From: a virus
Strand: one strand, 5' to 3'
DNA length: 64,000 nucleotides
Virus record (IMG/VR): IMGVR_UViG_3300009124_000005
Location: 27,699-91,698 of that record
Below the pieces are notes generated by a model. The model saw nothing but the letters and a program-made list of their open reading frames with translations. It searched no databases and was not told the origin of the DNA. The position numbers were made by a program, and so were the translations under genes. Position 1 is the first letter of the stretch. The number at the start of each line of letters is the position of its first letter. Below are positions 8,341 through 53,054 of this stretch, piece by piece.

Positions 8341-10896
8341 ATGGCAGCAGGAACAGTCGGCTTTAACGACACTTCTCAACCAGGAAAGGACCATATTGGG
8401 GCAATGATCTCCAAGGTTATTGCTGCGCGTAAATTTGCCAGAGAAGAGCGAGAGGCAGCAGAAGAAAAGGCAAAGAAAGCAGGATATGATAGTTTAGATG
8501 AACTTGGTGTAGAAAAAGGATTCTTTTTCAAGGCAGCACTGAAGAGTAAGTTCGGTGGATCATACATCAGTGGTAAGAAGCAAGACATTCAACAGACAGT
8601 TGATCGTGTCAAACTGCTGAAGAATCCCAAGGCACAGTTCTGGAACTTTGTAGACAATAGAGGCGCTGACGGTAAAGAGATAAAGAAACTGTCTGAAGTT
8701 GAAAGATTTCGAGAACAGTTTGATAACTATGCATTTGTAAGTGCCAAGAGAGCTCCTGAAAAGGTAGAATCATCCGAAGAGATGATACCTGATACGGCAG
8801 AAGAAACTGCATCATCAGCATCAGGAACTGGTAAGAGTAGAGTATCACGAGAAGATATTCTTACTGCAGTAAGTGCCATTGCATCATCACTTGAACAGAC
8901 TGCACAGTCTATCAATAATACACTTGGCGAGACAAAGAATATTGCCAGTGACGTACAGGCAATCAAGACTGATGTTATTGCTCAATTGAGTGAAAGAACT
9001 GATACTATTGAAGCAAAGTTAGATGCTATTGCTGCTGCTATTAATGCACAGACAGCATTACAAAAGAAAACCACTGATGATAAACAAGGTGCTCAAAAAA
9101 TGAGTGGTGGAGCAGCAGTTAAAAATGCTGCTGATAGTAATGTCGTTGATAATGTGATGACTCCTGAAGATGAAGGTGAAGAATCAGATTTAGATACAGA
9201 TAATATAGCAGATACACCTAGACAAGAACCTGATGCTGACGACCCCAACAAACCGCCAGAAGCAGAGACTGGTGGTATTGTTTCTGGTCCTGATAGTGGT
9301 TATCTTGCCAAGTTGCATGGCGATGAGATGGTTGTTCCATTAGACAACAACTATACTCAAGGTGAACCAAGTGCGATGGATGGTAAGGTAAGACCTGTAC
9401 CAGAAACTCCTGCTATGACGCCCAAAACTTCTGCAGTGTCATCTAAACCACAATCATTTGAGAAGGGAACATCTAACCTTGGTGGTAAGGTAGGATTTAC
9501 TGATTTAAATCTTGGTATGGCATCGAAATCTAGTAGTGGTTCTGATGCTATGACACAACCATTAATGGATGCAATGTCACTGCCTATGATGGTTGCTGGT
9601 GGTACAATACTATCATCCGTCACTAACTTGATGAATCAACTGGGACCAGAGGGTGATTCTTTTGCGGGTGAAATTGCCAAGGTAGCAAGACCTATCGCTG
9701 ATGTATTTGGGTTGCCTAATAGTCTTGCTAATAAAGTAACTGGACAAAAGAGTAGTAAGGGTGATTCTGATACTAAAAATAAAGATAAAACTGAAGCAAA
9801 GAAGAAAGGATTCTTTAGTAACTTATTTGAAAAGTTAAAGAAAGTTTCTGGTGGCGGTGGCGGCGGCGGAGGCGGCGGTGGTGGATCTACTACTGGTGGT
9901 GGCGGCAGTGGTGGTAGTGCTTCTCAAAAGGAAGTGGCCGATGTGATGGGAGCAGAGTTTGAAAAACAAGGATTATCTGAAGAAGGTGCAAAACTTGCCT
10001 TGGCAGAAATAGGACGAGAGAATAGTTTAAGTAGATCTCTTATTCTTGGTACTCATGATGATGGCGGCAAGACTGCATATGGTGCTGTTAGTTGGCAAGG
10101 CGGTCGGGAAAAAGTATTGTTGGATGAGTTAAAAGCAAGGGGGATTGATCCAACAGTAGCAGGACTTCAAGGTAGTGGAGACGAAGGTCTTCGCGCAAAT
10201 GCAGCGGCGATGATTAAAGAAATTGCTGCCAGAGGGCATACAGAACTGTTAGATTTACTTAAGAAACCAAATCTTACCGATGCAGAAAAAGATAAGGTAA
10301 GAAAACTATTTAAAGATCAATACTTTGTTTATAATAAAGGTATTTCGATACAAAGAAGTAGAGACTGGTATGAAACTGTTAGTAAGATGGGTCAAACTCC
10401 CCCATCAAGTACAGAAGACGATATCGTAGATTCTACAGATTCTCCGGAATCTATGATACCTACAGATTCACAATTAATTACCCAGAACTTCGGAGCAAAG
10501 ACAGGAGATAGAATACACTTTATGCATAATGGCAAAATGCATAATGCATATAAAACTACTAAAGGTTTTGCGTTGTTTTACCATAAGATGCCTATTGATA
10601 CAAGCAATGGTAAAAATGCTGCTGTAGTTAAATCTTTTATTAAAGAAGGTAAAAGACGATCAGCAATTAGTTCTCCAACTTCATCAGAAACACCTGGTCA
10701 GACACAAGCAGCACTACAGAAACCAGATAAAAATACTGGTGGGTCGGGTGCAACTCAAGTTGCTATGTTAAATACTTCTGCGGGGCAGCAACAATCTGCA
10801 GGCACGAATAAACCTCCAACACCACAACAAACTGTTGTTAAAGAGGGTGACACTAATAATTTAACATCCATGTTTGCATCACCACTAGTAGGATAA
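8341..10896 (+). CDS. Tail protein with lysozyme-like domain, paralogue of preceding gene
   Basis: An 851-aa tail-associated protein. Layout: charged helical N-terminus (1-130), coiled coil (about 175-240) ending in QTALQKK, acidic linker, GGIVSGPDSGYLAKLHGDE (about 315-330, like the previous protein's LHGTEAIIP site), a helical region, a long Gly run (about 504-530), then a domain at about 535-690 with the pattern of phage tail lysozymes (LALAEIGREN with candidate catalytic Glu, then AYGAVSWQGGRE). The C-terminus is Ser/Thr/Gln-rich. The gp5-type protein downstream has no lysozyme, so this gene may supply tail peptidoglycan cleavage. Confidence 0.68.
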   Translation: MAAGTVGFNDTSQPGKDHIGAMISKVIAARKFAREEREAAEEKAKKAGYDSLDELGVEKGFFFKAALKSKFGGSYISGKKQDIQQTVDRVKLLKNPKAQFWNFVDNRGADGKEIKKLSEVERFREQFDNYAFVSAKRAPEKVESSEEMIPDTAEETASSASGTGKSRVSREDILTAVSAIASSLEQTAQSINNTLGETKNIASDVQAIKTDVIAQLSERTDTIEAKLDAIAAAINAQTALQKKTTDDKQGAQKMSGGAAVKNAADSNVVDNVMTPEDEGEESDLDTDNIADTPRQEPDADDPNKPPEAETGGIVSGPDSGYLAKLHGDEMVVPLDNNYTQGEPSAMDGKVRPVPETPAMTPKTSAVSSKPQSFEKGTSNLGGKVGFTDLNLGMASKSSSGSDAMTQPLMDAMSLPMMVAGGTILSSVTNLMNQLGPEGDSFAGEIAKVARPIADVFGLPNSLANKVTGQKSSKGDSDTKNKDKTEAKKKGFFSNLFEKLKKVSGGGGGGGGGGGGSTTGGGGSGGSASQKEVADVMGAEFEKQGLSEEGAKLALAEIGRENSLSRSLILGTHDDGGKTAYGAVSWQGGREKVLLDELKARGIDPTVAGLQGSGDEGLRANAAAMIKEIAARGHTELLDLLKKPNLTDAEKDKVRKLFKDQYFVYNKGISIQRSRDWYETVSKMGQTPPSSTEDDIVDSTDSPESMIPTDSQLITQNFGAKTGDRIHFMHNGKMHNAYKTTKGFALFYHKMPIDTSNGKNAAVVKSFIKEGKRRSAISSPTSSETPGQTQAALQKPDKNTGGSGATQVAMLNTSAGQQQSAGTNKPPTPQQTVVKEGDTNNLTSMFASPLVG

Positions 10897-50378: not shown

Positions 50379-50924
50379 ATGACTAGATTCAACGGCGGTA
50401 TTCAGCAAGGCACTGTAGCCACTGATCCCCGAGCTCGTAAACTTGATGATCAATGCAAACAACTAAAAAGAGAAATCTTCAAGGAGTTGAAACATGCTTA
50501 TCCTCAACTGAAGATGCAAGCAAAGCTGCGTCAGGATCAGATTCCTGGTGGGATTGGTGGTTGTGCTCCTGATGGTGGTGCATGGTTCTACAATGATGTG
50601 CTGATTGCAGTGTTTGAAGGTAAGAAACAGCAGGACAAAGGTAATGCTATCGAGCGTTGGTTCAAGAATAACTATATCTGTCGTATGATCAATCCTGATG
50701 TTTCCTATGTTACGTTTTGCACTGGTGAAGGTGCTTATCATAATGGACAGATAGGTAAAGCACTGAATGTTGCTCACCTTACTGGTATCAATCAATATAA
50801 TCCAGGTGATAATAGTGTATATCTTACAACTGAATATGGATTTACAAAACAGTTCATCAGTGATATAATGGTTGAAACTATAACTGAACGAATCAATACT
50901 CTGTTCCCTCAAAACACTCTCTGA
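50379..50924 (+). CDS. EcoRI-family PD-(D/E)XK endonuclease
   Basis: A 181-aa restriction-type endonuclease, from ATG 50379. Catalytic motif: P64-D65-G66-G67, then E80-G-K82 (EcoRI: P90-D91-G-G, E111-A-K113). Directly after is G88-N-A-I-E-R93, the same as EcoRI GNAIER (140-145), which contacts the AATT core. An earlier YPQL (41-44) also matches EcoRI. EcoRI is 277 aa; here the roughly 24-residue stretch between the catalytic Lys and GNAIER is missing, as is the C-terminal part. All catalytic residues are present. The target may be GAATTC-like. Host DNA breakdown or exclusion of other phages are possible roles. Confidence 0.78.
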   Translation: MTRFNGGIQQGTVATDPRARKLDDQCKQLKREIFKELKHAYPQLKMQAKLRQDQIPGGIGGCAPDGGAWFYNDVLIAVFEGKKQQDKGNAIERWFKNNYICRMINPDVSYVTFCTGEGAYHNGQIGKALNVAHLTGINQYNPGDNSVYLTTEYGFTKQFISDIMVETITERINTLFPQNTL

Positions 50925-50926
50925 TT

Positions 50927-51112
50927 ATGCACCAAACTGTTCTTCGTATTAATAAAAAGTCCTGGTCTTCTGGTACAGATTATCATGTAGGAATGAAAGG
51001 ACTTGATGTAACTTTCACACACAAACCTGGGTGGACAATCAAAACTGAAATGATTATTGACAATCAAGGTTATCCAGGTTTGCGAGTCTGGCACGAAAAG
51101 GTTGACAACTGA
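50927..51112 (+). CDS. Small protein, unknown function
   Basis: 61 aa, beta-rich and basic (TVLRINKKSWSSGTDYHVGMKGLDVTFTHKPGWTI). Two bases downstream of the endonuclease. No family is recognised. Confidence 0.6.
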   Translation: MHQTVLRINKKSWSSGTDYHVGMKGLDVTFTHKPGWTIKTEMIIDNQGYPGLRVWHEKVDN

Positions 51113-51183: not shown

Positions 51184-52203
51184 ATGAACTACGATTCCCA
51201 AAATGATGGTCTGGTAAACTTGCTGGACTTTGCAAATAATCTTGGTATTGTTGGAATAAGAAAAGAAATAAAACCAGATGATTTTCCTCCCATCGAAGAT
51301 GTGATGTTAAGTGAACTCCACATTGATGAGAAATATCAACGACTTCTCAATGAATCTATGATTAAAAAGGCAGGACAGTTCAAACCTGAACTTTATAGTC
51401 CTTTACGTCTTTATCATCGTCCAGACGGAAAATTTGCTATTGTTGATGGACAACACGAGAGTGTATTAGCAGCAATTTACTGCATGAATCCAGAGATGAT
51501 GGCACTTCAAGCACAAGTATTTGAGCATGATTCAAATGCTAGTAACGAAGAATGTGTGGAAGTAGAGGCAAAACTATTCAAAGGAGTTAATGTCAACCGC
51601 ACAACAGTAAGTCAGGTTGCTCAACTTCGCACAGATATTGCTGCTAGTGTTAAAGAAGCACTGGAAGTTCGTAATACTCTAGATGAACTGGGTGTTCATG
51701 TTGAAAAAATTGGTCATCCAGAAGGATTTTCTGTAAAAGGTTATGCTAAACTGATGGAAGCAGTGAATACTTATGAACTTTCAACAGTAAAAGAAGCAAT
51801 CGATTACTACAATCAACTTCTTACTTCCACTAAATCAGCAAGCAAGTGGAAAACTAAAAAGAGTGTTGATCTTCAGGGTTCAATGATTGGAGGTCTCTCT
51901 GCTGTCATTTATCTCAAAAATTCATTGAATAAAGGTACATCAAGACGCACTGGGTTAGTGAACTTTATGGAATCTGAACTCATTGCAAATAAACTCACTC
52001 CCAAAGAACTTGCAGATAAAACCGCAGGAAACACTCAATTTGTGTTGATTGCCCGTCGTTTTGTTGATGAGTATCGTTCTGCTCTTGCATATGGTGCGAT
52101 TGAAGGTGCTCCAATAGGGGAAGATACACTCGGTAACTATGGTTTAGGAGATCCATCTAAAGTTAAGACTGCAAACAATAAAACCGAAGAAGATTCTGAA
52201 TGA
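51184..52203 (+). CDS. ParB/Srx-domain protein
   Basis: A 339-aa protein. Residues about 40-130 show a ParB-like N domain: LSELHIDEKYQRLLN then FAIVDGQHESVLAAI (D88-G-Q-H91). The rest is helical, with no clear DNA-binding motif. Such domains bind nucleotides (CTP/ATP) and serve as adaptor or nuclease parts in phages. It overlaps the Dam-like gene by four bases, suggesting a joint function. Confidence 0.72.
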   Translation: MNYDSQNDGLVNLLDFANNLGIVGIRKEIKPDDFPPIEDVMLSELHIDEKYQRLLNESMIKKAGQFKPELYSPLRLYHRPDGKFAIVDGQHESVLAAIYCMNPEMMALQAQVFEHDSNASNEECVEVEAKLFKGVNVNRTTVSQVAQLRTDIAASVKEALEVRNTLDELGVHVEKIGHPEGFSVKGYAKLMEAVNTYELSTVKEAIDYYNQLLTSTKSASKWKTKKSVDLQGSMIGGLSAVIYLKNSLNKGTSRRTGLVNFMESELIANKLTPKELADKTAGNTQFVLIARRFVDEYRSALAYGAIEGAPIGEDTLGNYGLGDPSKVKTANNKTEEDSE

Positions 52204-53054
52204 AACCTCTGTTTATTTGGGCAGGTGGTAAAACAAAGGTGCTAAAACATTATGCACCTTTTATGCCATCATCCTTTGAAACTTACTACGAACCATTCTT
52301 TGGTGGTGGTGCTATGTTTGTCCATGTGATGAACAGATACCGACCAAAGAATGCTGTGATCAATGACATCAACCCCAGCGTGATGAACATTTATCGTAGC
52401 ATTCGTGATGACTACGATGCATTCACCTCACGTCTAGATGCACTTGAAGCAATATATCTTCCCAAGACCAAGGAAGATAGGAAGAAGTATTACATGGAGG
52501 TGAGGTATCAACATGCCTATGATTATGAGAGTTGGGATACAACATATGAGGCAGCAACATTATACTTCTTGATGAAGACTGGGTTCAACGGTATATGGCA
52601 GATCAACAAGAATACCAACGGTAGGTACGGAACTCCTGCTGGATTGCTGAACCAGAAGGATAAAGTATATGATCGTGATGTGCTCAACTGGTGGCATAAT
52701 ACTCTTCAAGTTGTTGATATCAAGACTGGTGATTGGAAGACTGTAGTTGATACTGATCCTAATGGTTTCTTCTTCTTTGATCCACCCTATCGTGATAGTT
52801 TTGCTGATTATGGCAATGCATTTGGTGAGGATGCCCTATTGGACCTGATCGACTTTGCCGATGCACAAAAAAGAGTTTTTGTTGCCAACCGTGCGGATGA
52901 TGACTGGTTTGATGGTAAATCAAAGTCTTTATCAGTTCATTACTTCAACATAACATACACTGCGGGGCGTAGAAAGAAAACAGAGGACGGATATGCTGCT
53001 AAAAAAGCAAGAGAAATCCTACTACACAAGACAGACCGTGTGACACTAGTCTAA
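52200..53054 (+). CDS. dam: Dam-type N6-adenine DNA methyltransferase
   Basis: A 284-aa methylase of the D12/alpha class. The N-terminal FIWAGGKTK (5-13) and EPFFGGGAMF (31-40) form the AdoMet-binding part, and FDPPY (193-197) is the catalytic motif IV. A typical Dam is about 270 aa. Target GATC is common for the family but not proven here. It could protect phage DNA from host or own nucleases. Confidence 0.88.
   Translation: MKPLFIWAGGKTKVLKHYAPFMPSSFETYYEPFFGGGAMFVHVMNRYRPKNAVINDINPSVMNIYRSIRDDYDAFTSRLDALEAIYLPKTKEDRKKYYMEVRYQHAYDYESWDTTYEAATLYFLMKTGFNGIWQINKNTNGRYGTPAGLLNQKDKVYDRDVLNWWHNTLQVVDIKTGDWKTVVDTDPNGFFFFDPPYRDSFADYGNAFGEDALLDLIDFADAQKRVFVANRADDDWFDGKSKSLSVHYFNITYTAGRRKKTEDGYAAKKAREILLHKTDRVTLV

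Follow-up and report, generated by a model that had tools for sequence, protein, structure and literature searches.

A compact EcoRI-like nuclease gene beside an adenine methyltransferase gene in cyanophages: a likely AATT restriction-modification module

Introduction

Bacteriophages are described as seldom carrying type II restriction enzymes (PMC4081073). In EcoRI, the motifs read from the sequence in a plasmid record are YPQL at residues 50–53, PDGG at 90–93, the pair E111/K113 and GNAIER at 140–145; within the last of these, N141, A142 and R145 read the AATT core of the recognition site (PMC4081073). MunI recognizes CAATTG. Among eukaryotic viruses, the systems of the marseilleviruses have been proposed to exclude competitors rather than to degrade host DNA (PMC7253447). 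In bacteriophages, one copy of the family studied here (gp11 of S-CREM2) is already labelled 'restriction endonuclease EcoRI'. The paper on S-CREM2 does not mention EcoRI, its remark on the methylase concerning DNA stability, and the corresponding family phrog_2400 is without an assigned function in PHROGs.

We analysed a stretch of 64,000 nucleotides (hereafter, the window) from a 91.7 kb virus contig, which carries a member of this family. Many cyanophages were found to carry such a small EcoRI-like nuclease, mostly beside a DNA methylase.

Results

The nuclease gene and its conserved motifs

The ORF starts with ATG and is translated into a product of 181 aa; its position and those of the other features are listed in Table 1. 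The YPQL, PDGG, ExK and GNAIER motifs are arranged in the identical order in this ORF and EcoRI, while the spacing from the catalytic Lys to GNAIER is 5 residues in the phage nuclease and 26 in EcoRI. Homologues were collected by two scans of viral sequences, down to about 35% identity. In the alignment of 42 homologues (35–77% identity), 16 columns are invariant, and the invariant residues include P64, D65, E80, K82, Q84, G88, N89, A90, E92, R93, W94, K96 and N97; the PD, ExK and GNA-ER elements are invariant or nearly so. The likeness of the motifs is not due to chance, because these 16 columns are invariant and the family profile retrieves EcoRI from the PDB.

The gene is present in 65 phage records (nearly all S-RIM2 isolates, plus S-CREM2), and the closest annotated relatives are Synechococcus phages. 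No cellular homologue was found in one scan of genome contigs with two narrow patterns.

Table 1 Positions of the features of the window and of nuclease or candidate nuclease genes at other loci
Feature	Position	Strand	Evidence or remark
Predicted EcoRI/MunI-branch PD-(D/E)xK endonuclease gene, 181 aa	50379..50924	+	phrog_2400, E 1.7e-93
YPQL, residues 41–44	50499..50510	+	common to EcoRI 50–53
PDGG, residues 64–67, catalytic Asp65	50568..50579	+	P64, D65 invariant, n = 42 homologues
E80-x-K82 catalytic pair	50616..50624	+	invariant, n = 42 homologues
GNAIER, residues 88–93	50640..50657	+	counterpart of the EcoRI AATT-core-reading element
61-aa ORF	50927..51112	+	no PHROG match; near-identical ORF in L230 between nuclease and ParB-like gene
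ParB-like protein gene	51184..52203	+	phrog_2558; weak ParB match phrog_1033
Dam/DpnM-type (D12) adenine methyltransferase, proposed protective partner	52200..53054	+	PF02086, E 5.9e-31
Gln134 codon of methyltransferase; Arg in T4Dam (R116) and DpnM	52599..52601	+	alignment
DPPY catalytic motif of methyltransferase, residues 194–197	52779..52790	+	alignment
MunI-family proteins of virus contigs, encoded immediately ahead of a methyltransferase of the same subfamily	L276:2507-2992, L286:2060-2611, L289:4444-5001		PF11407 over cut-off in L276, L289
288-aa family, RGIxGHxAAxRF + D...ELKxDG stretch, beside the same methyltransferase subfamily	L234:3029-3892; also L233, L236, L248, L257, L261, L275		

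Relationship to EcoRI and MunI

When the 42-homologue profile was searched against the PDB with hmmsearch, EcoRI gave the sole matches (E 6.9e-6 to 7.1e-5), and hhalign of the nuclease family against four EcoRI-family sequences gave a probability of 95.7% (E 8.6e-9). The latter alignment stops at EcoRI residue 190–191, and the C-terminal region of EcoRI past about residue 190 is missing in the phage protein. The 42-sequence set was needed for this result: a profile built from closer relatives alone did not reach EcoRI, and a single-sequence phmmer search of the PDB with the nuclease returned chance matches only. Likewise, the window protein did not match PF02963 (EcoRI), to which 4 of 30 members had matches (best E 0.027), none being significant singly. 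As for MunI, the chain of which reads EGKDPSAGRGNAHER, the window protein did not match PF11407, and hhalign between the GNAIER family and the phage MunI-like set gave only 25%, a weak link.

The AlphaFold2 model of the nuclease is confident (pLDDT 90.1, pTM 0.84). In the model, D65 precedes a strand, E80 and K82 lie on the next strand, and GNAIER opens the following helix; this order fits the PD-(D/E)xK superfamily core, with the catalytic residues on adjacent strands. The BFVD structure matches were phage proteins, one of them named PD-(D/E)XK nuclease domain-containing (E 5e-4). The sequence link to EcoRI is good, but structural identity with EcoRI remains unproven, because Foldseek gave no strong match in the PDB (top match E 0.11).

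The sequence-only reading had proposed a compact EcoRI-like endonuclease in a phage, on the grounds that PDGG (64–67), E80/K82, GNAIER (88–93) and YPQL stand in the EcoRI order within 181 aa; it had also noted that the Lys–GNAIER insert and the C-terminal region of EcoRI are missing. Both observations held. The proposal itself is supported by the profile search, in which EcoRI was matched at E 6.9e-6, by hhalign and by the confident model, but EcoRI was not among the 50 PDB matches listed by Foldseek. One refinement is that the motif spacing is nearer to that of MunI (EGK-x6-GNAHER) than to that of EcoRI. The evidence thus supports an EcoRI-like PD-(D/E)xK nuclease as the product of the phage ORF, its cleavage activity being inferred.

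The methyltransferase partner

Downstream of the nuclease gene lies an adenine methyltransferase gene, which the sequence-only reading had overlooked. Its product matches TIGR00571 (Dam; E 1.6e-39), and the closest solved structure is DpnM (PDB; E 1.7e-25). The ParB-like gene sits between the two, as it does in several relatives.

The survey of the nuclease covered 86 loci, which form 40 clusters when grouped at 80% identity, with a partner defined as a gene within 2.5 kb or fused. An adenine methyltransferase adjoins or is fused to the nuclease in 36 of the 40 clusters, so that the criterion for a type II restriction-modification system, namely, the genes for the restriction enzyme and the methyltransferase together, is met there. 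The partners comprise 34 D12 enzymes (in L088 encoded upstream of the nuclease), one fusion (L037) and one MT-A70 enzyme (L089). The last, which is unrelated to D12 (PF05063, E 2.7e-27), occupies the partner position, and this non-homologous replacement favours a functional coupling of the nuclease and the methyltransferase. The fusion, a single ORF of 470 residues on one metagenomic contig, could be the artefact of a single indel, because the two genes often overlap; its single-sequence folding gave no usable model (pLDDT 30). No methyltransferase adjacent to the nuclease was found in the L032, L066, L073 and L082 clusters. In G013 (locus L078), the nuclease is likewise alone, but a D12 gene of the same methyltransferase subfamily is located, unlinked, about 19 kb away.

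Several other genes were observed at these loci. The interval from the nuclease to the methyltransferase repeatedly encodes ParB-like proteins, which differ from one another (window 51184-52203, L005:3939-4871, L230:690-1673, L242:903-1886) and might have a regulatory function. Directly upstream of the EcoRI-like nuclease in L005 (1770-3112), a protein of 191 aa with a weak match to HSDR_N (E 0.06) is followed by a CcrM-like beta-class methyltransferase, which could be a second restriction-modification pair in the same locus. In S-CREM2 (L040:3296-5905, 8528-9772), the nuclease and the methylase are flanked by genes annotated as a Cas9/Csn1-like endonuclease and a SAM hydrolase; it is unusual for the latter to accompany a methyltransferase. 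In G008 (L143:6421-7971), an ORF resembles, judging by its start alone, the annotated tryptophan halogenases of cyanophage syn9.

Occurrence of AATT in genomes with and without the nuclease

Cleavage of AATT by the phage enzyme would predict that this sequence is missing from phages that have no methyltransferase. With the expected counts taken from a second-order Markov model, AATT occurs 0 times against 233 expected in G007 (73,883 bp) and 0 times against 340 expected in G008 (111,864 bp). Both carry the nuclease, and no methyltransferase candidate was detected on these incomplete contigs. Since they are incomplete, a methyltransferase elsewhere is not excluded, and the two represent one lineage. 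Phages carrying both the nuclease and the methyltransferase retain AATT, though depleted, and the depletion is partial in the remaining nuclease-bearing genomes (observed/expected ratio, O/E, 0.12–0.78).

The median O/E of AATT was 0.30 in 15 nuclease-bearing genomes or contigs and 0.91 in 15 cyanophages without the nuclease (p 1.3e-5, U-test), and AATT was the most different of the 136 strand-symmetric tetranucleotides between the two sets. The absence of the nuclease was judged by a phrog_2400 search, which recovers the gene in G000. The U-test counts related genomes as independent (the G007/G008 and G004/G005 lineages), and several genomes were sampled partly; the p-values are overstated because genomes within groups are related, yet the pattern recurs over many lineages. 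As a closer control, 80 related loci were collected by way of the helicase next to the G008 nuclease: the O/E values were 0, 0, 0 and 0.13 in the 4 loci with the nuclease, and 0.50–1.08 in the 76 without it.

One might suppose that AATT-recognizing restriction enzymes of the hosts drive the loss, the phage nuclease having another target. In favour of this explanation, phages commonly avoid host restriction sites (PMC6286503), and CCGG is missing in many cyanophages regardless of the nuclease. However, the loss of AATT tracks the nuclease, with neither the 76 related loci nor the 15 nuclease-less cyanophages being similarly depleted, and the AATT-reading motif of EcoRI is present in the phage nuclease. 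We consider this explanation unlikely.

It is similarly unlikely that the target is a longer or degenerate xAATTx site, e.g., GAATTC or CAATTG. EcoRI and MunI do read six bases around the AATT core; however, AATT has gone from G007 and G008 in every context, not in one hexamer alone, the GAATTC and CAATTG counts in the window record match those expected given AATT, and the EcoRI regions beyond the shared core are missing. The site statistics thus indicate AATT in any flanking context as the target, although this evidence is indirect and cleavage is inferred. The sequence-only reading had counted at least ten GAATTC in the window and concluded that either the DNA is modified or the specificity is different. 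The count held: GAATTC occurs 12 times, including all six positions that it had listed (497, 2387, 30233, 47470, 57641 and 60385), and AATT occurs 257 times. The genome of the isolate S-RIM2 (KX349231) contains 11 GAATTC and 13 CAATTG. For the two alternatives, there is now evidence for both, because the gene for an adenine methyltransferase lies shortly downstream and the site statistics favour AATT over GAATTC.

Two groups of loci deviate from the simple pattern. One consists of L066/L067 and G012 (the L073 cluster), in which the nuclease occurs alone and AATT is kept (O/E 0.66–0.80). No D12 gene was found on the partial L066 and G012 contigs; an unlinked methyltransferase as in G013, or a changed specificity, may account for the retention. 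The other consists of 14 loci that carry the methyltransferase subfamily without a recognized nuclease and are also depleted in AATT (pooled O/E 0.46), which might reflect unrecognized nucleases nearby or past ones.

These 14 loci, together with the fact that orphan phage methyltransferases are common, could be taken to mean that selection acts on the methyltransferase, as a shield from restriction by the host, and that the nuclease merely travels with it, as an incidental or selfish element, or has no activity. Against this idea, the catalytic residues of the nuclease are invariant at 35–77% identity, contigs with the nuclease alone occur, and an inactive nuclease would not have caused the complete loss of AATT in one such lineage, that of G007 and G008. 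A passenger nuclease is therefore improbable.

Other sequences are also avoided by these phages. CCGG is absent from many T4-like cyanophages, namely, S-RIM2 (L104-L112; 0 against 144 expected), G007, G008, G012, G013, syn9 (L156), S-SSM4 (L158) and S-RIM8 (L155), and AGCT and GGCC are strongly depleted too. As the absence of CCGG is seen both with and without the nuclease gene, it is unlinked to it, and CCGG was rejected as the target.

Specificity of the methyltransferase

A search based on the methyltransferase revealed the same subfamily beside several nuclease types, including the GNAIER family. One is a DGG...E(N/H)K-x-Q...NA(C/V)ER family, which hhalign relates to the GNAIER family at 93.6%. 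Another is the MunI-family proteins (PF11407, 30.8 bits against the cut-off of 25); since MunI cuts CAATTG, a second AATT-core enzyme type shares the same methyltransferase subfamily. A further one is the 288-aa RGIxGHxAAxRF family, which had no Pfam match at E 0.01 and may be an unrecognized restriction enzyme.

The linked methyltransferases examined have Gln at the position of T4Dam R116 and the DpnM Arg. In the T4Dam and EcoDam structures, that Arg contacts the outer G:C pair of GATC, and Gln in its place would, by inference, suit an outer A:T pair. This change is supporting evidence only, because Gln also occurs in the methyltransferases of S-N03, where the nuclease is absent, and of Raoultella phage Ro1, where no listed nuclease adjoins. 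K9 of E. coli Dam was dropped as a specificity marker: T4Dam is without that Lys, and the S-CREM2 methyltransferase has one. From the MunI-type partners and the Arg-to-Gln change, we infer that the methyltransferase targets AATT, the methylation itself being inferred as well.

The relationship to Dam and DpnM, namely, DpnM being the closest solved structure and the TIGR00571 match, might instead suggest a module that methylates and cuts GATC. However, GATC avoidance is no different between genomes with and without the nuclease (median O/E 0.83 and 0.87; p 0.48), G007 and G008 contain 426 and 673 GATC, respectively, and the Arg reading the outer G is replaced by Gln in this subfamily. This explanation is thus very unlikely, and GATC was rejected as the target on the site counts. 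Separately, S-RIM8 (L155, 31993-32811), without an EcoRI-like nuclease, encodes a DNA adenine methylase of its own close to the helicase and shows a GATC O/E of 0.11, possibly a different specificity at the same genomic position.

Discussion

The gene pair, its conservation, its relationship to EcoRI and the loss of AATT tied to the nuclease are shown by the present data. The likely explanation is a phage-borne AATT restriction-modification module composed of an EcoRI/MunI-branch nuclease and a Dam/DpnM-type methyltransferase, in which cleavage, AATT methylation and the role are inferred. In this module, the compact restriction endonuclease would recognize the four bases AATT and, with the downstream methyltransferase, would form a type II restriction-modification system. 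The nuclease would cut unmodified AATT in other DNA inside the infected cell, while the phage would be protected by methylation of its own AATT or, in lineages without the methyltransferase, by the loss of AATT from the genome. The role would be host DNA breakdown, exclusion of competing phages, or both; use against the DNA of the host or of rival viruses is likely, but it is inferred and both roles fit. We also lean, by a small margin, toward a bolder reading: an offensive AATT module, widespread among phages including the T4-like cyanophages, in which nucleases of EcoRI-like, MunI-like and further types have been swapped around one methyltransferase subfamily and some AATT-free phages use the nuclease without the methyltransferase.

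Most lineages of the nuclease family have a methyltransferase partner, and the carriers are phages of marine Synechococcus, among them the S-RIM2 group, which has been isolated. The AATT-free phages with the nuclease alone (G007, G008) and the methyltransferase-bearing phages that keep AATT constitute a natural experiment, and the predicted AATT specificity is testable by one restriction digest of virion DNA. If the module is real, a weapon against the DNA of the host or of competing viruses would be added to cyanophage biology.

Comparison with known systems

The window nuclease belongs to the same family as S-CREM2 gp11 (phrog_2400, E 1.7e-93). It shares with EcoRI (PF02963), the sole PDB match of the family profile, the PD...ExK, GNAIER and YPQL motifs and their order, whereas it is about 100 aa shorter and lacks the Lys–GNAIER insert and the C-terminal third; its partner is a D12 enzyme, while EcoRI plasmids carry an EcoRI-type adenine methyltransferase, and its predicted site is AATT. 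With MunI (PF11407), it shares a compact layout (EGK-x6-GNAHER in MunI, EGK-x5-GNAIER in the phage) and, by prediction, the AATT core, and MunI-family enzymes in other phages adjoin the same methyltransferase subfamily; however, the profile link is weak (25%) and the MunI site is CAATTG. The window methyltransferase has the D12 fold family, DPPY and an FNG motif in common with DpnM and T4Dam, but has Gln for the Arg reading the outer G:C pair, and GATC is unavoided. Finally, the Chlorella virus and marseillevirus systems likewise consist of a virus-encoded restriction enzyme and an adenine methyltransferase, with a proposed exclusion of other viruses (PMC7253447); those belong to eukaryotic giant viruses and act on GATC and other sites, whereas here the carriers are bacteriophages and the enzyme is of the EcoRI/MunI type.
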